Assembly (NCBI GenBank): GCA_015228875.1
Contig: JADGCS010000029.1
Location: 1 to 42,480, forward strand
DNA: 42,480 bases
Direction: 5' to 3'
Origin: Deltaproteobacteria bacterium
Lineage (GTDB): Bacteria; UBA10199; JADGCS01
Under the pieces are notes generated by a model. It saw only the letters and a list, made by a program, of their open reading frames with translations. It did no database searches and had not been told where the DNA came from. Below, one piece after another: positions 10,685 through 41,046 of the stretch. Every line of letters begins with the position of its first letter. The first letter of the stretch is position 1. Made by a program: the position numbers and the translations under genes.

Positions 10685-10696
10685 TTTAATGTATAT

Positions 10697-10779
10697 GAAT
10701 TTCAAAGTCGACAGAGCGCGGGTGCGTTCCTCGCAAAGTGGAGGAGTTTAACCGCGTCAAAGTCAAGTTAGTAACTTGT
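10697..10779 (+). repeat. 83-bp palindromic repeat, copy A
   Basis: This is one of five copies of an 83-bp repeat (others at 25180, 33878, 39724, 40941). In this orientation it begins GAATTTCAAAGTCGACAG and ends GTTAGTAACTTGT. The core forms an imperfect hairpin between the GCGCGGGTG and AACCGCGT arms, and the end contains the 7-1-7 palindrome CAAGTTAGTAACTTG. Copy A supplies the last codons and stop of the BKACE gene and ends 12 nt before the mccA start. Confidence 0.9.
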
Positions 10780-11640
10780 AAACCCCATGATTGCTCTTGC
10801 CTCGGACGCACTGGCAACGGTCCTTCCTGTTTCTTGCGCCAGACGGGCAAGGGCCTCGATAAGTGGGGCATTTGAATCCACCTTGTCACCGTTATCAAGA
10901 TAAAAAGTATCCTCAAGCCCCGATCTTAAATTGCCGCCGAGTTCTGCCGCCCTGCGGTGCAGGGGCCACACATCTTTGCGGCCGATTGCGGTCACCTGCC
11001 AGCGCGTTGCGGGACCGATTTCTTCGAGCAGAAGGGGGAGCCAGTGCGGTTTTAAGGGCATCCCGCTCTGAACACCCATCACAAAGTTGATGGAGGGATG
11101 ATGAACCATGCCGTTTTTTTCAAAGAGGGCGATGCTTCTCACATGACCGGTATCAAAACACTCAAACTCGGGGCGTGTCCCGGTTTCTTGCATCACATCG
11201 AGAAAACCCTGTATTTTTTCCACCGGGTTGTCAAACACGAGGGGTGGCCAGGCCCATGCCCCGTCATTTTTGATTTTGAGGTAATTGAGTGTCCCCGCGT
11301 TGCAGGCCGCGTATTCGGGCCTGATCCTTTTAATGCAGGCTGTGGGACCTGATATGTCCATCCCCATGATCCCCGTTGACAGGTTGATAATGATTTCGGG
11401 GACCGCGTTTTTGATGGCGCTGATCACGCGATCGCAGACATCGGGGTCAAACGAGGGCAGGTGCCCGAGGTCAGGGTCCTGATTGCGGCAGTGCACATGA
11501 ACAATCGCGGCCCCCGAATCAAAGGCGCGCCTTGCCTCAAGGGCCATTTGTTCGGGGGTGACGGGCACCCTGTGTAATTTGGGATTGGTAAGTACGCCCG
11601 TGAGGGCACATGTGATGATGACTTTATCGTTTTGTGACAT
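10768..11640 (-). CDS. BKACE family beta-keto acid cleavage enzyme (DUF849)
   Basis: This 290-residue protein belongs to the family of 3-keto-5-aminohexanoate cleavage enzyme, TIM-barrel zinc enzymes that condense a beta-keto acid with acetyl-CoA to give acetoacetate and a new acyl-CoA. Visible are the zinc ligands in VHVHCR (H48, H50) and RSGLED with the third ligand near E243, plus INLSTG. The substrate is unknown. Its place before mccAB fits amino-acid or branched acyl-CoA breakdown, since acetoacetate is also an end product of leucine degradation. The final residues (TSY and stop) lie in the 83-bp repeat; the conserved ending (ARAIMGF) lies just before it. Confidence 0.85.
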   Translation of the reverse strand: MSQNDKVIITCALTGVLTNPKLHRVPVTPEQMALEARRAFDSGAAIVHVHCRNQDPDLGHLPSFDPDVCDRVISAIKNAVPEIIINLSTGIMGMDISGPTACIKRIRPEYAACNAGTLNYLKIKNDGAWAWPPLVFDNPVEKIQGFLDVMQETGTRPEFECFDTGHVRSIALFEKNGMVHHPSINFVMGVQSGMPLKPHWLPLLLEEIGPATRWQVTAIGRKDVWPLHRRAAELGGNLRSGLEDTFYLDNGDKVDSNAPLIEALARLAQETGRTVASASEARAIMGFTSY

Positions 11641-15216: not shown

Positions 15217-15271
15217 TGATGGCTGGGTCCTCGGGCCAGAAATTTCAAGGGTTGCGTGGTGCGTTATGCGG
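15217..15271 (+). repeat. 55-bp direct repeat, copy 1
   Basis: This 55-bp stretch is identical to 18136-18190. It starts TGATGGCTGGGTCCTCGG and ends GTGCGTTATGCGG. In both places a second short similarity (AATGAC-G/A-GAGGTC) lies nearby, at 15137 and 18259, but in the opposite order relative to the 55-mer. Each copy lies just past the 3' end of a minus-strand gene. It is probably debris of a mobile element no longer present. Confidence 0.85.
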
Positions 15272-18135: not shown

Positions 18136-18190
18136 TGATGGCTGGGTCCTCGGGCCAGAAATTTCAAGGGTTGCGTGGTGCGTTATGCGG
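18136..18190 (+). repeat. 55-bp direct repeat, copy 2
   Basis: Identical to 15217-15271. The remaining sequence from 18094 to 18281 shows no gene. Confidence 0.85.
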
Positions 18191-25179: not shown

Positions 25180-25262
25180 ACAAGTTACTAACTTGACTTT
25201 GACGCGGTTGAGTTTCCACGTCATGCGAGGAATGCACCCGCGCTCTGTCAACTTTGAAATTC
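25180..25262 (-). repeat. 83-bp palindromic repeat, copy B
   Basis: This copy is in the reverse orientation (starts ACAAGTTACTAACTTG, ends AACTTTGAAATTC). It lies in the divergent space between the protease gene and the secreted-protein gene at 25455, 68 bp and 192 bp from the two start codons. The remainder of this 342-bp gap is AT-rich and shows no further gene. Confidence 0.9.
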
Positions 25263-25454
25263 CTAGATATAAATTTAATGCAGGCTCATAGACATTTTTT
25301 GTTTTAATTTCAATTAATTTAAGGGGGTTAACTGATAATTTTTTTGTGTGTTCAAAAGGAGAATTTAATGATTACCGGTTGATACAAATACCAATATATA
25401 TTATGGGCAAAATATTGTATCATGATCACTTAATCCGTTTGTAGGGAGTTTCTT

Positions 25455-26069: not shown

Positions 26070-26155
26070 GTGGTTAAGGTCATGGCTGTGTCATTGCTGC
26101 GCCATTGCCGCGTCATGGCTGCGTCAATATCGTTTCATTTTTGTGAGGAGTGATC

Positions 26156-27796
26156 ATGAAAAAATTCCTGCTGTTTTCTGTTCTGGTGTCCGTGTTCCTG
26201 TTCATTGGGGTTACAGCCTTTGCCGGACAGGGGTATATCATCAACAATTACGGGGCGCCTGTGCTGTGGGACGCATCGGCCACTGATCCCATTGCTGTTC
26301 ACCCCGAGGGCGGTGCCTGTGGCAGGTTCGCAAACAGCGAGATGCTCACAAGGCTTACTTCAAATCTTGGTCAGTGGGCCAACCTTACCGATCTTGACCT
26401 TGCCTTTAGCATTACTTCTGGTGTGGTTGAGGGTGTGGACTACTGCAATTACACAGATTATCTCGCCGGTGTTCTGGGCAACACGACGACGGAGAATACA
26501 AACAACATCCAGGATAACGTCAATCCTGTTCTCTTTGACAACGACGGGGAAATTATTGACGCCGCAACGGGTGAGTCAAACGGCCGTTACACCATATTGG
26601 GATTTGCAAACCCCTCCGGTTTTTCCACCGATCCTGATGATGACACTCTCTACACGGGCATTGTAGACGGGCAGGCCCTTTTTAACTGTTACTGCCTTGA
26701 AGATGCCGATGGAAACCCCGCACACAGCGACTGCGGTGCAACTGTATTCACGACGGACGATCTTGATTTTACCATGATCCACGAGATGGGGCACTTTATG
26801 AATCTGGATCACACACAGATCAACGATGCGTTCTCTTCGGATGACGACGCAGAAAACGACGACGAGCTCCCTACAATGTACCCCGTGTCTATCAGCGCTG
26901 GTAGTCAATTAACACCCATGGAGGATGACATCGTCGCTGTTTCAAGCCTGTACCCCGCGGATAGCTTTTTTACCTCCGGCAACGCTGCTTCTACTTATTG
27001 TCTGGTCACGGGGACACTGCTCGACCGCTTTGGAGATGAAATGCGGTGTGCCGATATTCAGGCGATTGATTCGGTCGACAACACCTACAATGTCGCGTTT
27101 GTCTCGGGTGCCTACGCCCCGGCGGTGGATGGGAACGGCGATGGTGATTCGGCGGATACGGGTGAGTGTACATCTGCTTGCGGCGGTTTTCAATTGTATC
27201 TCAGGCCTGGCAGAACTTATGCCCTGCAAGCTGCCAGTATCAACAACACTTTTATTGGGGGATCCGGCATCTCCCCGTGCGCCAACGCCCAGCACGTCCA
27301 GTGCGATTCTACAATCACCGGGCGATGCACGGACAACAATACCAGCACGGAGTGCCGTGCCTGTGTCGATAACGAAACATTGGTAGATAACGACAACAGC
27401 GAGGTTATTGCGGCAAAGATATCTGCAGGGTGTACTGCTGGTGCGACTGTGGCTCTGGGGGATATTACCGGCGGTTCTGTGAGCAGCGTATCGGCGGCCT
27501 CAAAAAATCTTGTCAAAAAATCACTCAAGGGTGAAACGCCTGTCCCGGTCCCGTATGCGAGGCTTTTACCAGGAGGAGAACAGGCAGCCCTCTCTGCAGC
27601 CATCACTTGTCCAGAATCTGGCGGAGACAGCGATGATGACGACGACAATTCTTCTTCGTCACTCTCGGGTTGTTCCCTGCGCCCCGAACAGCGGATGACC
27701 AGGGGGACAGGTTTTGGTTTTGCGATGGTCATGATGGCTCTTGTTTGTCTCTTTGCAGGGCATCGTGCCATCAAGGCTTTTTCGGGGAATGAGTGA
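26156..27796 (+). CDS. matrixin-like zinc metalloprotease with C-terminal anchor
   Basis: This 546-residue protein has a signal peptide ending at AFA. The zinc site is HEMGHFMNLDH (His209, Glu210, His213, His219), a metzincin pattern with Asn in place of the usual Gly. A downstream Met (TMYPVS) fits the Met-turn. Cys-rich segments follow. After an Asp/Ser-rich linker the end has SGCSLRPEQ, one hydrophobic helix (about 22 residues) and a basic tail, like a C-terminal sorting signal. ATG 26156 is preferred to GTG 26150 because of the GAGGAG 7 nt upstream. It is paralogous to the next gene. Confidence 0.8.
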   Translation: MKKFLLFSVLVSVFLFIGVTAFAGQGYIINNYGAPVLWDASATDPIAVHPEGGACGRFANSEMLTRLTSNLGQWANLTDLDLAFSITSGVVEGVDYCNYTDYLAGVLGNTTTENTNNIQDNVNPVLFDNDGEIIDAATGESNGRYTILGFANPSGFSTDPDDDTLYTGIVDGQALFNCYCLEDADGNPAHSDCGATVFTTDDLDFTMIHEMGHFMNLDHTQINDAFSSDDDAENDDELPTMYPVSISAGSQLTPMEDDIVAVSSLYPADSFFTSGNAASTYCLVTGTLLDRFGDEMRCADIQAIDSVDNTYNVAFVSGAYAPAVDGNGDGDSADTGECTSACGGFQLYLRPGRTYALQAASINNTFIGGSGISPCANAQHVQCDSTITGRCTDNNTSTECRACVDNETLVDNDNSEVIAAKISAGCTAGATVALGDITGGSVSSVSAASKNLVKKSLKGETPVPVPYARLLPGGEQAALSAAITCPESGGDSDDDDDNSSSSLSGCSLRPEQRMTRGTGFGFAMVMMALVCLFAGHRAIKAFSGNE

Positions 27797-27802
27797 CGCA
27801 TT

Positions 27803-29272
27803 ATGTTTACATTAAGGCTCATCGTATTCCTTGTCATGACCGCCGTTTGTTTTGTCTCATCTGCAACGGCGGGTGGGCCGCTTTACAAGGATAATATTGG
27901 TCTGCCCAGCTCGTGGGACAATTCGACGGCCATCGATTATCACCCCGAGAGCGGGACCTGTGGTGCTTTTTCAAACGCGGAGATGCTTGCTTTTTTTGAA
28001 ACGGCCCTTGAGGTCTGGACGGACATTGATGAGGTAGAACTTGCATTTAATCAAGAGGACGGGCAGATTGGTCAGGTGGGTGTCGATAATTACGATGATT
28101 ATGTTTACCTTGATGCCGCGTCACCCGCCGCTCTTTTAACAGACAACATCAATCCGGTGCTTTTTGATGATGACGCAGAGATCACGGCGGAGATTGCCGG
28201 TGAGGCAAATCAGTATCTCGTCCTTGGTTTTGCTGCGCCCGCTGCTTTTACGTCAGATTATACAGAAATCACGGATGGGCAGGCGGTCATCAACTGCCGC
28301 TGTCTTACAGATCACCCGAGCGGCCCTTGTTATCTCGATGGCGGTCAGGGTACGGTAGAGGTCTCCGAGTCCGAGCTTGAGTTTACCGTTGTGCACGAGA
28401 TGGGGCATTTTATAAACCTCGATCACTCGATCACCAACGACAATTACTACGGCACCGCGACAGAGGGGAGCGTGGTCCCTATCATGTACCCCGTTTCCTT
28501 TGAGGCCGAGGGAGGGTTGTCTGCAAGGACCGATGACATTGCTTCCCTGGCCCTGATCTATCCTTCATTAACTGACATCGATGAATCGTGGTGCCTTGTG
28601 ACCGGGACCCTGCTTGACGAAGATGGCAACGAGGTTCAGTGTGTGGCGGTAACGGCGACAGCGTCGAGTGTTGTCGATTCATCTCTCTCCGTGGGTTCTG
28701 TCTCGGGCTCGTTTGCTATTTCTGAGGATGAAAACAGCGATGGGGATGCTGTTGATGATGGTGAGTGTTCCGAATACTGCGGTTATTTCGAAATGTATCT
28801 CAGGGCGGGCTATTCTTACACCCTCGAGACATACGAGATCTATTCGGGTTTCACGGGGGGGTCAAGTGTTGGCCCCTGCATCAATGCACAGAAAAGCGTC
28901 ACGGCAGAGGAGGTCACAACCGTGGATGAGGCCCAGTGTGTGGCCGGGACAACCATTGGACTTGGGACGTTCACGCTGACGGGCGTTTCATCGAGCGGTG
29001 GTGGGGGTGACGATGACGATGACGGCGGCGGTGGTGGCGGCGGTGGTGGTGGTTCGATTGTGGATGATTCGGTTGAGAATCCTGTTGGGTACTGGGATTG
29101 CTCGCTTTCGCAGGTTCGTGTGCCCCATCTTGGGAGCGGGCGGGGCAATGTTTCAACAACGAATATTTTCACACTGCTGTTTTGTGTTTGCCTTTCTTTC
29201 CCTGTCATTTTATTCAGGCTGAATGAAATTTTCAAAATCGCTCATACACACATACAGAGAAGCCCCCGCTGA
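27803..29272 (+). CDS. second matrixin-like zinc metalloprotease with C-terminal anchor
   Basis: This 489-residue protein starts 6 nt after the first protease and has the same plan: a signal peptide (cut after ATA), a conserved CGAFSNAEML segment, DNINPVLFDDD, and the zinc motif HEMGHFINLDH (His198, Glu199, His202, His208), followed by MYPVS. The linker is Asp and Gly only over about 20 residues. The end has WDCSLSQ, then a hydrophobic helix and Arg, matching the CSL of its neighbour. The last 50 nt overlap the proS start, so the true end should be checked for a frame error. Confidence 0.78.
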   Translation: MFTLRLIVFLVMTAVCFVSSATAGGPLYKDNIGLPSSWDNSTAIDYHPESGTCGAFSNAEMLAFFETALEVWTDIDEVELAFNQEDGQIGQVGVDNYDDYVYLDAASPAALLTDNINPVLFDDDAEITAEIAGEANQYLVLGFAAPAAFTSDYTEITDGQAVINCRCLTDHPSGPCYLDGGQGTVEVSESELEFTVVHEMGHFINLDHSITNDNYYGTATEGSVVPIMYPVSFEAEGGLSARTDDIASLALIYPSLTDIDESWCLVTGTLLDEDGNEVQCVAVTATASSVVDSSLSVGSVSGSFAISEDENSDGDAVDDGECSEYCGYFEMYLRAGYSYTLETYEIYSGFTGGSSVGPCINAQKSVTAEEVTTVDEAQCVAGTTIGLGTFTLTGVSSSGGGGDDDDDGGGGGGGGGGSIVDDSVENPVGYWDCSLSQVRVPHLGSGRGNVSTTNIFTLLFCVCLSFPVILFRLNEIFKIAHTHIQRSPR

Positions 29273-33877: not shown

Positions 33878-33960
33878 ACAAGTTACTAACTTGACTTTGA
33901 CGCGGTTGAGTTTCCTCGTCATGCGAGGTACGCACCCGCGCTCTGTCAACTTTGAAATTC
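33878..33960 (-). repeat. 83-bp palindromic repeat, copy C
   Basis: This copy has the best hairpin tip: CCTCG-TCATG-CGAGG, flanked by GCGGTTG paired with CACCCGC. It ends 14 nt before the ATP-grasp ATG and lies between that gene and LysR. Confidence 0.9.
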
Positions 33961-33974
33961 CCATACATGAATAT

Positions 33975-35426
33975 ATGCAAACTATTTTTTCAGGACAACC
34001 AGCCATCAGACAACTCTATCCCGCCGGTGTAGTGCACCCTGCCAATTATTGTGCAGAAGCTCAAAATTTTTCTCGGGGAGACACCACGGGTGGTGATCTG
34101 GTACGCTTGGATGGCAGGGGGCTTGTTGCCCTTTCAAGAGGAGATGTTGTCATCTGCCGTCAATCAGAAGTCAGCCAACACCAGGACATGGTCCGTTATC
34201 TTAACACGCTGGGCGTTTCTTCGTTAAGACCCAGAGATGTGTTTGGTGTCGAAGACAGAGAAGCCTCCACTCCAGTGTGTCAAACAACCGCCAGCTTGCT
34301 CCAACAAGATCGCGCTTCAATACAAGCGGTCAGGGCCATGATCAATGGGGCCAGGCATATGGTCCCCTTTATTGCCTCCGATGCCTCCATTCAGATTGCG
34401 TCCCATTTTAAACTGGATGGAACTCAATCATCACAAGCTGTAGACCTTGCCAACAATAAAGGGGCGCTTTCGCACGGCGCACAGCAGTTTGGTTTTTTAA
34501 CTCCACCCACCACCAGACCAAAAAACCTTGCGCAAGCACAAGAGCAATTTGAGCATCTTTTACACTTAGCCGATCAGTACCCCACAATTTACGATAACAA
34601 GGTTTGGCTCAAACTCAACCGATCATCGGGTGGCGAAGGTGTCATGGCCTTTTCAGACATCGACGCATTTTTATCTTTTTTAACTCAAGATCATAACCCG
34701 CATAAATCGGAAAACACTACGCGGGCGGACACCATACAAAAATTGATGCCGAAAGGCGTAGAAAAAACCTTCCAAGGTTCCAAAGGCCTTGGTTTTTACA
34801 ATTCCATGGTGGATCAAGGTGAATACGAAGGCGTTGTTCTCCAAATCGGGGGCAAGGCCAGAGCTCATGAACCTGTTCCAAACATCAATTTTTTTGTTGG
34901 AGCATCACCCTCCGAAGACCGTTATATCGGGGCCTCTGCCCAGGTGATTGAAAAGGATTCCATCCATGTTGGAAACCAGGGTCTCTCAAATCAAAATGAC
35001 CACAATAGTTTTTTACCGGTCATCCAAAAAGTCGCTCATTGGTTAAGATCTCTTGGTTTTAGGGGAATCTGCGGCATTGATGCTGTGATCAGCCCCCAGG
35101 GAGACATCTGGGTCATTGATATCAATGCACGTTGGAATGCAAGCACCTCTACGCTCATGACCTTTAACAATCTGCGTCACCTGCCTGGTGTTGAAACCTT
35201 TAGATACGCTGGAAAAATCCGTGTACCCCAAGGCACAGGGATGCATGCGTTTACACGATGGCTCGATTTACAAAAAATCAACTTCACCCCAGGTCGTGGT
35301 GGAGTGATCCCTATAAATCTGATGCCAGCGCAAGATGCCGATCATCCTGTGATCAATGCCGCAATCCTGGGCCCTGATTCACAGACCGTGAGTGAGTACT
35401 TTGATTTGGCGCATATGCGTCCTTAA
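33975..35426 (+). CDS. ATP-grasp carboxylate-amine ligase-like protein
   Basis: This protein of 483 residues has an ATP-grasp core: KLNRSSGGEGV (about 211-221) as the glycine-rich nucleotide loop, GICGIDAV and then DINARWNAS (about 381-389) with the metal-binding Asn. ATP-grasp enzymes join a carboxylate to an amine via an acyl-phosphate; the PGM1-type peptide ligases are the nearest I can suggest, with low certainty. The frame opens earlier at 33891, but that part is the 83-bp repeat, so ATG 33975 is preferred. Residues of about 240-270 are the in-frame inserted element. It may act on amino acids handled by the adjacent transporter. Confidence 0.7.
   Translation: MQTIFSGQPAIRQLYPAGVVHPANYCAEAQNFSRGDTTGGDLVRLDGRGLVALSRGDVVICRQSEVSQHQDMVRYLNTLGVSSLRPRDVFGVEDREASTPVCQTTASLLQQDRASIQAVRAMINGARHMVPFIASDASIQIASHFKLDGTQSSQAVDLANNKGALSHGAQQFGFLTPPTTRPKNLAQAQEQFEHLLHLADQYPTIYDNKVWLKLNRSSGGEGVMAFSDIDAFLSFLTQDHNPHKSENTTRADTIQKLMPKGVEKTFQGSKGLGFYNSMVDQGEYEGVVLQIGGKARAHEPVPNINFFVGASPSEDRYIGASAQVIEKDSIHVGNQGLSNQNDHNSFLPVIQKVAHWLRSLGFRGICGIDAVISPQGDIWVIDINARWNASTSTLMTFNNLRHLPGVETFRYAGKIRVPQGTGMHAFTRWLDLQKINFTPGRGGVIPINLMPAQDADHPVINAAILGPDSQTVSEYFDLAHMRP
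34691..34784 (+). repeat. 94-bp intragenic palindromic element, copy 1
   Basis: This copy is 94 % identical (6 differences) to 36915-37008 and lies in the same reading frame relative to its host, coding for a peptide with the core ENTTRADT and VEKTFQGSK. CTACGC/GCGTAG arms enclose the middle, and AACCTT/AAGGTT forms a short terminal hairpin. It lies between a helical segment and the next conserved part of the ATP-grasp protein, as expected of a tolerated loop insertion. Confidence 0.88.
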
Positions 35427-35454
35427 ATCATACCCACGTGTTGCAGAATCTAGG

Positions 35455-35603
35455 AGCCTGTCGGACAATACCTGTTTCGGAGGAGTCCTGAAAAATCATG
35501 TCCCGTGATAAAACGTACAGACATGATTTTTCAGGGTTTGAAATATTTTGCAAGCGGCAAAATTTTCAAACTTCCGGAGAAACAGGTATTGTCCGACAGG
35601 CTC
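35455..35603. mobile_element. 149-bp MITE, copy 1
   Basis: The perfect 24-bp terminal inverted repeat starts AGCCTGTCGGACAATACC. The element is flanked by CTAGG at 35450-35454 and 35604-35608. Inside are two more hairpins: CCTGAAAAATCATGTC (35487-35502) paired with 35520-35535, and TTTGAAAT-ATTTTGC paired with its complement around 35552-35556. The whole folds as a three-stem structure. It lies between the ATP-grasp gene and the 612-residue gene. Confidence 0.88.
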
Positions 35604-35694
35604 CTAGGGAAAAAACGCACAACTTTCAAATCCCCCAAACGAGAATGGGTATGCACGTTTAAAATAAGAAATAACAGATTATTTAAAGACAACC

Positions 35695-37533
35695 ATGATA
35701 GGCACACCACAATTAATTTTTGGCCACTTGACCTCACTGCTCCCCTGGTGTGGCCCACTTGCCGCACCACCAGCCCTGCCTGCAACTACGCTTTTGCCAA
35801 GATCAACGATTTCAGCACAAGCCTCTTTGCAAACGGCCAGTTCATACCTCTCATCAGCAGCAACAACCGTGCACACTGCTTTGCCTGCTTTTGCCACAGA
35901 TCATCCTGTCTTGACAGGAGTGGCTGTGTCCCTGGCTGGTTACGCACTTTATAAAAATTATCAAGCTGCACCCAATAAGAACCCCCCAAAACAAATTGAA
36001 CCAGGCATCCCTCAAACAACAGATGCGTATCAAGAACACTTTGACAAACTCTCAAGTCTTAAATCACAGCTCTTAAAAGCACCTGAAGAAAAAATCCCAG
36101 GGCATTACGCAGAGATTCAAAAAACGATCCTGGAACAAGTTGCTGTTTACGAAGAACAAGCCCAGGCTCTTTCCAAACAGATTCATGACTTCAAATCTGT
36201 AAGTCCCTTCACTCCTGACAGGCAATCCTTACTGATCAGCAAGGTAGAAACAAGAAAAGATATTTTTAGGGCCTTTCAAAAGGATGTGACCTTCTTAAAT
36301 GACCTTATGTCTCTGTGGGGCGTGCGACAAGTCGTTGATGCAGAAAAGGTCATGCGTCAAATTGAAGAGCGCTATTTCAACCTCGAAAACAACAAGCTTA
36401 AATTGATTCCCATGTATGGATATAATTTTCTGAACTCGATGTGCTCGGTTATGGGTGCCCTTGTGATGATCAGCGCTTTGAATGCAGGTTTGCCTGCTCT
36501 CTTTCACGACACGTTTCCAGAAGTCATAAATACGGTGGCCGAGCCACATGCCCACATGACAACCGGTGCGCTCATCAATTTTTTTAAGCAGATGACATTT
36601 TTTGGAATTGCTTTTGATGCCGTGTATGCCGGGACAAAAGGCATGCGATGCCGTAACACCACAGCCGCACCAGCGAGGGCTTGGAACAAAGTCCTGGACA
36701 CAGCAGGTAAAATAGCGAGCATCCCTTCGCCTGTTTTTAACATGATCAACGGGGCCTTGCACGCGGCGCTTGGCAAGCCCTGGGATGTGGTCACACGATA
36801 TGCCTATCGCGCCGCAACACTGGGGGCCATGGGTGTTGTACGTCAAATCGGACAGGACCTTGAATTTAGTTTGAATGATATTGCGAGTTCTTGTGTCACA
36901 AAAATTTTTAAAACTCATAACCCGCATCAAGCGGAAAACACTACGCGGGCGGACACCATGCAAAAATTGATTCCGAAACGCGTAGAAAAAACCTTCCAAG
37001 GTTCTAAACAAGTCAGACCCTTTGGGAATGTTGGGGATGTCTCTATTGGTCTTCTTGTTGGTGGAATCTTTGATTGGTCAGTAGGAATTATCGAAAACGT
37101 GATGCAGAATATCATAGTCAAAACATCAGCAGGATCCCTTTCTTCAAAGGTTGGCGCTGCGTTGCAGAATCCTTTTGCACTGATCTGGCATAATGCCGCC
37201 CCCACTGCCGCCTGCAACGTTCTTCATTCCAACGCCACAGCGCGGGTATCACAATTTGCGGGCAATGATGATATTGATGTTGTGATGAGCCGATTTGCCC
37301 TGGGTGTTATTAAAGGGAGCCTCCTCACGGCCCTGATCACAAACGCCGCTATTAATGGAAGTTCTCCAGCGGCAACGGCCATCTACCTCACAGCTCAACT
37401 GTTCATTGGTGCAAACAGTATCCTCTTGTCAAAAGCCATGACAAACCCGGCATTGCGATCAAAGGTCTCTCGCTTGATGTCCCGGATCAAGCAAGGGGGA
37501 AAAGGGGTCAAACCTTTACTATTACCTTTTTGA
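35695..37533 (+). CDS. membrane protein of unknown function (612 aa)
   Basis: I do not recognise this protein. The N-terminus is Pro/Ala/Thr/Ser-rich without a clean signal peptide. Hydrophobic segments are seen at about 71-88, 245-270, 295-315, 440-460 and near 540-580, and a charged helical stretch lies between 105 and 230. Residues of about 408-438 are the second copy of the in-frame element. The last residues (KGVKPLLLPF) are encoded by the dispersed repeat shared with 18797, so the original C-terminus was probably altered. Position after the ATP-grasp gene may mean a shared function. Confidence 0.6.
   Translation: MIGTPQLIFGHLTSLLPWCGPLAAPPALPATTLLPRSTISAQASLQTASSYLSSAATTVHTALPAFATDHPVLTGVAVSLAGYALYKNYQAAPNKNPPKQIEPGIPQTTDAYQEHFDKLSSLKSQLLKAPEEKIPGHYAEIQKTILEQVAVYEEQAQALSKQIHDFKSVSPFTPDRQSLLISKVETRKDIFRAFQKDVTFLNDLMSLWGVRQVVDAEKVMRQIEERYFNLENNKLKLIPMYGYNFLNSMCSVMGALVMISALNAGLPALFHDTFPEVINTVAEPHAHMTTGALINFFKQMTFFGIAFDAVYAGTKGMRCRNTTAAPARAWNKVLDTAGKIASIPSPVFNMINGALHAALGKPWDVVTRYAYRAATLGAMGVVRQIGQDLEFSLNDIASSCVTKIFKTHNPHQAENTTRADTMQKLIPKRVEKTFQGSKQVRPFGNVGDVSIGLLVGGIFDWSVGIIENVMQNIIVKTSAGSLSSKVGAALQNPFALIWHNAAPTAACNVLHSNATARVSQFAGNDDIDVVMSRFALGVIKGSLLTALITNAAINGSSPAATAIYLTAQLFIGANSILLSKAMTNPALRSKVSRLMSRIKQGGKGVKPLLLPF
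36915..37008 (+). repeat. 94-bp intragenic palindromic element, copy 2
   Basis: This copy has perfect CTACGCG/CGCGTAG arms and the same terminal AACCTT/AAGGTT hairpin as copy 1. It is in frame in a protein unrelated to the ATP-grasp ligase. Four of the six differences from copy 1 change the amino acid conservatively or mildly, and none creates a stop. Confidence 0.88.
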
Positions 37534-37960
37534 TTTTTTTCATTGACGTTGCCCCCTTTGCCCGTTCTTTAATCATCATCAGCACATCATCAGCACATGG
37601 CGGAGTTCATCAGAATACATGACGGTGTTCATGACATTCCTTAGTGCAAATAGTATCCTCTTATCAAAAGCCACGACTCATCCAAGATTGCGATCAAAGC
37701 TCTCTTGCTTGATGTCCCGGATCAAGCATGTAGAAATGTAGAATAGGGGTAGAACACATAAGAAAACATCAGCATCATTTTATTTTTTTCGTTTTTTATT
37801 CTTGGTTAAAAAAAACCAGAGGAGTATGAAGCAGAACAACTTGTTTATTCATGGATCAATAATACAGCAGCCTGACTACTGCGAGACTGTGTCTGTTTTT
37901 TTTTGGGGGGGGGAAGATCAGACTGAGATAGAAACTACCGCTACAAAATAGTATTTGAAA
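37534..37960. other. 427-bp gap: decayed gene-end copy, homopolymer tract
   Basis: The gap contains a CATCATCAGCA tandem repeat near 37573, a 15-bp dispersed repeat (37601-37615, also 40665-40679), a decayed copy of the preceding gene's 3' end, and a T9G9 tract at 37896-37913. No intact gene is seen. Confidence 0.6.
37644..37728 (+). pseudogene. decayed duplicate of the 3' end of the 612-aa gene
   Basis: 85 bp resemble 37409-37493 inside the membrane-protein gene, at roughly 87 % identity by eye, both ending in GATGTCCCGGATCAAGCA. The rest of the gene is absent. Confidence 0.8.
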
Positions 37961-39664: not shown

Positions 39665-39723
39665 GACTGGCAAGTTTATCAGGTGGGCATGTGAGTCCAA
39701 GGTGGTGTAGATTTATGAATAGC

Positions 39724-39832
39724 AATTTCAAAGTCGACAGAGCGCGGGCGCACTCCTCGCAAAATGAAGAAATTCAACCGCGTCCCCCAAGGGGATTTCC
39801 TTCGGGGCATCAAAGTCAAGTTAGTAACTTGT
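39724..39832 (+). repeat. 83-bp palindromic repeat, copy D, with 27-bp insertion
   Basis: This copy carries an extra 27 bp after the CCGCGTC arm (39784-39810), itself a small dyad (CCCCAAGGGG and CCTTCGGGG). It ends 3 nt before the ATG at 39836 of the ACT-VOC gene. Confidence 0.85.
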
Positions 39833-40663: not shown

Positions 40664-40695
40664 TCGGAGTTCATCAGAACACTTCATTGGCTGGG

Positions 40696-40844
40696 AGCCT
40701 GTCGGACAACTCCTGTTTCGGAGGAGTCCTGAAAAATAATGTCCCGTGACAAAACATAAAGACATGATTTTTTAGGGTTTGAAATATTTTGCAAGCGGCA
40801 AAATTTTCAAACTTCCGGAGAAACAGGAGTTGTCCGACAGGTTC
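40696..40844. mobile_element. 149-bp MITE, copy 2
   Basis: Same length as copy 1, flanked by CTGGG at 40691-40695 and 40845-40849. The terminal inverted repeat starts AGCCTGTCGGACAACTCC. Compared with copy 1, ATA is replaced by CTC-type bases in the left arm and the right arm has changed to match. The two inner hairpins are kept in position. Confidence 0.88.
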
Positions 40845-40940
40845 CTGGGCAACAGTCAGTGAAATAAAGGAAAAACAGTTCACCCAAATAATTCAACACA
40901 CCGACACTCAAATTGTCTTGTCTTGTAATTCAATGTATAG

Positions 40941-41023
40941 GAATATCAAAGTCGACAGAGCGCGGGTGCATTCCTCGCAAAATGAAGGAATTCAACCGCG
41001 TCAAAGTCAAGTTAGTAACTTGT
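40941..41023 (+). repeat. 83-bp palindromic repeat, copy E
   Basis: This copy pairs ATTCCT with AGGAAT and GCGGGTG with CAACCGC around the loop. It ends 23 nt before the rimO start and follows MITE copy 2 by under 100 bp. Confidence 0.9.
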
Positions 41024-41046
41024 AAAATTTTAAAGCGTGGTCCCTC

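Follow-up and report, generated by a model that had tools for sequence, protein, structure and literature searches.

Element A, a hairpin-forming repeat family with in-frame copies in protein-coding genes of a deltaproteobacterium-like genome

Element A is a family of short hairpin-forming repeats in the genome of a Deltaproteobacteria bacterium (GCA_015228875.1), recognised from two copies in contig JADGCS010000029.1, which was analysed over its whole length of 42,480 nucleotides and is referred to here as the window. The genome surveyed comprises 228 contigs and 4,584,649 bases, the window being the entire contig C150. Element A is very probably a non-autonomous mobile element that has reached, by an apparently unrelated sequence, the way of life of the Rickettsia palindromic elements (RPEs). 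The latter are palindromic repeats of 100-150 bp present in all sequenced Rickettsia and Wolbachia, and certain RPE families are located inside open reading frames (ORFs) with the frame intact (PMC3767692). The RPE-like behaviour of Element A is supported by its many further copies and by homologues of both window host genes that lack the segment.

Copies and structure of Element A

The original prediction described a 94-bp palindromic element inserted in two unrelated proteins of the window and adding about 31 residues to each. Both 94-nt copies are present, match at 88 of 94 positions with no similarity beyond their ends, and share the same plus-strand reading frame in the two long ORFs (Table 1). 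The repeat and its frame were thus borne out, but the unit is 87 bp or 29 codons and forms three hairpins rather than one palindrome; the bases of the 94-nt repeat outside it belong to the preferred target context (C before, CTA after). Homologues of both hosts were found in genome G029, from another family of the same class. The alignment to its ATP-grasp homologue (45-56% identity) breaks at residues 264/299 with 15 nt between, and the insert, residues 268-296, falls inside this gap; that of the 612-residue protein breaks at 405/436 with about 6 nt between. In both cases the segment is absent and the gap falls cleanly between conserved blocks. The two homologues also adjoin each other in G029, and both copies of Element A are therefore additions in the present genome.

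Recombination between neighbouring genes, instead of separate insertions, is an exceedingly improbable source of the window copies. They lie only 2.2 kb apart in adjacent genes, as such an origin would have it, but their similarity ends sharply at the element, both G029 homologues lack the insert and many other copies exist genome-wide. The last observation rules out recombination as the source of the family as a whole.

The whole-genome search for further copies that the original prediction had proposed found many, both inside and outside genes. Searched with the window repeat, the genome yielded at least 41 Element A matches among 209 candidates, and the consensus query yielded 221 candidates. 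A copy census of 1.87 of the 4.58 Mb (41%), in which some contigs had been picked for holding matches, contains 102 matches; 23 contigs not chosen in this way hold 25 copies in 0.72 Mb, equivalent to about 159 per genome. From the genome-wide candidates and this density, the copy number is about 160-220 in the 4.58-Mb genome. The repeat landscape as a whole consists of nested hairpin modules, with 433 repeat regions making up 2.6% of the 1.87-Mb sample.

The exact boundaries of the unit are known because empty and filled copies of a second repeat, family B, could be compared. The three hairpins are formed by CCGC/GCGG, CTACGCG/CGCGTAG and AACCTT/AAGGTT. Across 59 distinct copies, pairing of the main and tail stems is intact in 92-100%, and a compensatory change is seen at the last pair of the tail (T-A in 36, A-T in 18). 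Most copies read CGCGTAG-AAAA-AACCTTCCAAGGTT, so that GTAG lies 5' of the tail hairpin, separated from its stem by 4 nt, and CT follows directly 3' of the hairpin. No terminal inverted repeat was seen in the unit, and an Rfam search gave no convincing RNA family. One sense frame and two antisense frames of the unit are open. The sense peptide is hydrophilic, with a grand average of hydropathy of -1.56, and the antisense frames score -0.10 and +0.88.

Subfamily A1 is 87 bp long, and 20 of the 22 copies of A2 are 88 bp. A1D, a third form, possesses an extra hairpin module D, a net addition of 48 bp that brings it to 135 bp in 12 of 17 copies. Further modules, E (CCCCCAAGGGGATTTCCTTCGGGG) and F (CCATGTGCCGTACGGAACATGG), are nested within A, B or both. 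An A1 and an A2 copy stand side by side in opposite orientation at G000:C149:21348-21528, forming an inverted repeat of about 180 bp. The burst of Element A looks recent, since many copies are 97-100% identical to the consensus, and appears limited to this lineage as far as observed. No match was found in 145 relatives, in plasmids or in phages, and an exact search with the core 20-mer found nothing in 84,980 GTDB r220 species or in IMG/VR, collections from which the source genome itself was possibly left out. A phage, plasmid or virus origin was rejected, those collections containing no matches.

Reading frame and host proteins

The 150-bp flanks on each side of a copy were called coding with a codon-phase Markov model trained on 636 ORFs. 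Among copies whose length is divisible by three and whose flanks both code on the same strand, 12 of 14 occupy one phase and are open throughout (p = 8e-5 against one third). All in-gene copies are 87 or 135 bp long. None of the 88-bp A2 copies is in frame, the lone in-frame A2 copy being an 87-bp variant, and no copy of any other length not divisible by three is in frame. In-frame copies are oriented sense in 15 cases and antisense in two, even though the antisense side has the larger number of open frames; 14 of 16 would by itself give p = 1.2e-5. A direct comparison of in-frame counts by divisibility (12/59 against 0/27, Fisher p = 0.007) was dropped in favour of the coding-flank test: an insert that shifts the frame can never be in frame, which makes the comparison partly circular.

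These counts bear on the view that Element A is an ordinary intergenic repeat, of the repetitive extragenic palindrome (REP)/bacterial interspersed mosaic element (BIME) kind or similar to miniature inverted-repeat transposable elements (MITEs), that falls in ORFs by chance, some of them pseudogenes. Most copies do lie between or next to genes: among the 44 A1 copies, both flanks are non-coding in 13 and a single flank is coding in 14. The GTAG tag with its hairpin is also REP-like (PMC8266576, PMC3733652), and the in-frame copies of family B do not exceed chance, 9 of 18 sharing the same phase. Such a view is nevertheless unlikely, given the single phase and open frame of 12 of the 14 copies and hosts that are full-length and include the single-copy lysyl-tRNA synthetase (LysRS) and Mfd.

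LysRS, encoded on contig C145, carries Element A at residues 373-401. It is the only LysRS found in the genome, and the other aligned match fits AspRS. When aligned to relatives, the protein shows a break at residues ~371/403, on either side of the insert, and genome G001 of the same family has 6 bp at this position. The insert falls inside the region matched by the catalytic tRNA-synt_2 domain, and the best-matching LysRS in the PDB aligns on both sides of it but not across. In an AlphaFold2 model of moderate quality (19 sequences; mean predicted local distance difference test score, pLDDT, 65), where the insert is numbered 351-379, residues 354-381 have a pLDDT of ~31 with better-modelled helices on either side; the insert is therefore predicted to be a floppy, disordered loop. 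In Mfd (1220 aa) a copy 89% identical is located at 374-402; the alignments of relatives skip it, and those examined in detail lack the insert and show a clean gap. Other hosts include an OppD-type ATPase, a futalosine-hydrolase-like protein, an MscS channel, ComEC (A1D form), a kinase, a radical-SAM/DUF2344 protein with the insert between its domains, an acyltransferase, an Rsm22-like protein and TPR proteins. One antisense in-frame copy is found in a PMT_2 membrane protein, where its hydrophobic peptide may be harmless. Element A copies are also present where the genes of an aroK-aroB-aroQ-like cluster meet (G000:C76; gene names read from sequence), and they apparently lengthen AroB and AroQ at the N-terminus.

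The insert might instead be present in the gene and absent from the protein, through intron-like removal, ribosome skipping similar to that at mitochondrial bypassing elements, or cutting of the protein. The strong structure of Element A, with its nearly always paired main and tail stems, and its occurrence in conserved enzymes would fit such a process. It is nonetheless very unlikely: in-gene copies are of 87 or 135 bp with one open frame and mostly one orientation, no 88-bp copy is in frame, and removal would make both frame and length irrelevant; the lack of an Rfam match also counts against it. We infer, rather, that the insert is translated and kept in RNA and protein, and that the proteins bearing it are functional. 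In this interpretation Element A would have spread recently in one lineage by insertion at TTC^CTA-like sites without target duplication. In-gene copies would be tolerated when phase and orientation are right, because A1 is 87 bp long (135 bp in the D variant) and has one stop-free sense frame, and copies that shift the frame or add a stop would be purged. The tolerated copies would be translated as a hydrophilic, probably disordered loop of 29 residues.

Insertion, movement and associated repeats

Family B offers Element A a fixed nesting site, in which GAAATTC/CTATACATT becomes GAAATTC-(ATAACC...AAGGTT)-CTATACATT on entry of the 87-bp unit. Eight copies, belonging to A1, A2 and A1D, occupy this identical site. 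Overall, C precedes 93% of insertions and C-T-A follows in 75-86%; the site reads TTC^CTA. No target-site duplication (TSD) of 2-9 bp was detected above shuffles in 44 A1, 22 A2 and 123 B copies.

In TnpAREP systems, GTAG serves as the guide and cleavage occurs at CT (PMC8266576). The genome contains 10 Y1_Tnp matches, and it is possible, if somewhat doubtful, that a Y1 (HUH) single-strand transposase moves Element A, in which case it would act in trans on the single-stranded DNA of the element. Strand preference with respect to GC skew, as would follow from single-strand transposition at replication forks, was observed: 48 of 75 A copies lie on the C-rich strand and 95 of 135 B copies on the G-rich strand, the latter bias having p = 0.009 against the 59% of long ORFs on the G-rich strand. 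Two candidates were rejected, namely an autonomous parent element, in which A ends would enclose a Y1 transposase and which was not found at the six Y1 loci read, and a strict guide model, as copies with the variant GTCG do not have the predicted change of flank. A broader scheme is more doubtful still: interchangeable hairpin cassettes (A and B, with D, E and F nested), moved as single strands by Y1 in trans, might keep adding coding-compatible inserts to housekeeping proteins, with the GTAG guide picking TTC^CTA and selection for divisibility by three splitting a "protein-safe" A1 from a protein-breaking A2.

Several points weigh against the interpretation of Element A as a translated element mobilised in trans. 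Base-pair covariation is weak except at one tail pair. The assembly is a draft with 4.55% contamination, the census was partial and partly selected, and the LysRS model is only moderately good. The case for translation comes from the constraint on frame and length. Neither A nor B ends bound a Y1 transposase at the six of 10 loci read; the flanks of the GTCG variants do not agree with a strict guide; and some of the strand bias may stem from gene orientation.

The other repeats of the window are included in Table 1. Family B units are ~86-98 bp long, form hairpins, contain module E in some copies and were counted about 150 times at full length in the 1.87 Mb. Several ORFs do include B in frame, but B was rejected as an in-frame coding element on its phase count, which is not above chance. 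One B copy overlaps the first 28 codons of the TTG-initiated ORF of the ATP-grasp gene, and ATG 33975 is therefore the likely true start. Family G is a long-hairpin repeat of ~160 bp with ~20 copies in the sample.

Table 1. Element A, its host genes and associated repeats in the window
Feature	Position	Strand	Description
Element A copy 1	34691-34784; core unit 34693-34779 (87 bp)	+	In frame in ATP-grasp gene; peptide HNPHKSENTTRADTIQKLMPKGVEKTFQGSK
Element A copy 2	36915-37008; core unit 36917-37003 (87 bp)	+	In frame in 612-aa membrane protein; peptide HNPHQAENTTRADTMQKLIPKRVEKTFQGSK
Host gene 1, ATP-grasp ligase-like ORF	33891-35426	+	511 aa from TTG; Pfam ATP-grasp_3
Host gene 2, predicted membrane protein	35695-37533	+	612 aa; no Pfam family
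Family B copy, start of host gene 1	33878-33975	-	Hairpin repeat; B is a nesting site for A elsewhere
Family B, other copies	10685-10782, 25180-25277, 39711-39808, 40929-41026		Hairpin repeat
Family G copy, long hairpin repeat	35450-35611		Between both host genes
Family G copy	40691-40852		Between genes

The 3' end of the 612-residue gene is partly duplicated just downstream as a gene remnant (37402-37493 and 37637-37728, 86% identity). Elsewhere in the window, the repeat pair 26758-26826 and 28372-28440 belongs to the adjacent ORFs 26150-27796 and 27803-29272, an apparent tandem duplication with a zinc-metalloprotease-like motif HEMGHF(M/I)NLDH, and an exact 55-bp repeat occurs 2.9 kb apart at 15217-15271 and 18136-18190. 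Another repeat, TCATTGCGAGGAGCGAAGCGACACGGCAATCCC, is present at G000:C145:21080-21193 and is common across unrelated bacterial genomes.

Relation to known repeats and significance

Element A resembles the RPEs (Ogata et al. 2000, 2002) and their Wolbachia equivalents in its size of about 100 bp, hairpins, many copies, several families and both intergenic and in-frame locations. RPE fusions preserve the reading frame of the host (PMC10969869), their hosts include aminoacyl-tRNA synthetases (PMC3767692), and a guanylate kinase with an in-frame RPE is active according to work cited in PMC2229807. The repeat character (87-135 bp, three hairpins, ~160-220 copies) and the in-frame presence in conserved genes (LysRS, Mfd, OppD, ComEC, radical-SAM/DUF2344) are found here too. 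The host differs, being an unreduced genome of 4.6 Mb in a lineage outside Rickettsiales, and the nearest named LysRS proteins are those of Deltaproteobacteria bacterium GWA2_38_16 and metagenome-assembled genomes of Bacteriovoracaceae, at 53-54%. In-gene forms of Element A are 87 or 135 bp with three separate hairpins, as against one long stem with terminal inverted repeats in RPEs; its hairpins are nested in modular fashion, and it is known so far from one genome, whereas RPE sites are common to several species.

Element A could in principle be a true RPE family gained horizontally from Rickettsiales, to which its matching way of life, its size, its several families, its intergenic and in-frame copies and its housekeeping hosts would correspond (PMC3767692, PMC10969869). 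This origin is highly improbable, as the core 20-mer has no exact match across GTDB species, relatives, plasmids and phages have no match, and no A or B peptide matches NCBIfam at E <= 1, a search that included no direct alignment to published RPE sequences and for which the release was not checked for an RPE model. The likeness to RPEs proposed in the original prediction is therefore supported for behaviour, namely many copies and clean insert-free homologues; for membership nothing speaks so far, these searches having turned up no related sequence and the lineage lying outside Rickettsiales.

REP/BIME sequences mobilised by TnpAREP or REP-associated tyrosine transposases (RAYTs) share with Element A the GTAG 5' of the terminal hairpin, the CT 3' of it, the lack of TSD, several Y1 genes and a mosaic layout. 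However, REPs are 20-40 bp long and extragenic, and Element A is 87 bp, often intragenic, with GTAG 4 nt from the hairpin; no RAYT flanked by A was found at six of the 10 Y1 loci, those that were read. ERIC, YPAL and Correia repeats (Delihas 2007) are likewise small non-autonomous repeats sometimes fused in frame. Within genes, Correia elements occur as the 107-bp form and hardly ever as the 155-bp one (PMC2229807), a contrast resembling that between A1 and A2. Most repeats of this type possess terminal inverted repeats and TSD (PMC2229807, Table 1), as do classical MITEs, and Element A has neither.

The kind of phenomenon is already known, because occasional in-frame fusions of small repeats exist in enterobacteria, Yersinia and Neisseria (PMC2229807), and the statement that such elements are described mainly from Rickettsiales needs this qualification. 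What is new is a modular and apparently unrelated family, found outside Rickettsiales, that includes a coding-compatible subfamily and has an essential single-copy gene among its hosts. A 2024 review considered such a mechanism in other prokaryotes merely "conceivable" (PMC10969869). Protein-coding palindromic elements have hitherto been regarded as a peculiarity of Rickettsia and Wolbachia, tied to reduced intracellular genomes, and the occurrence of Element A in a 4.6-Mb delta-proteobacterium-like genome suggests convergence, independent of genome reduction. As a young burst in a single genome, with sister forms of 87 and 88 bp, it constitutes a natural experiment on the tolerance of selfish DNA in proteins.

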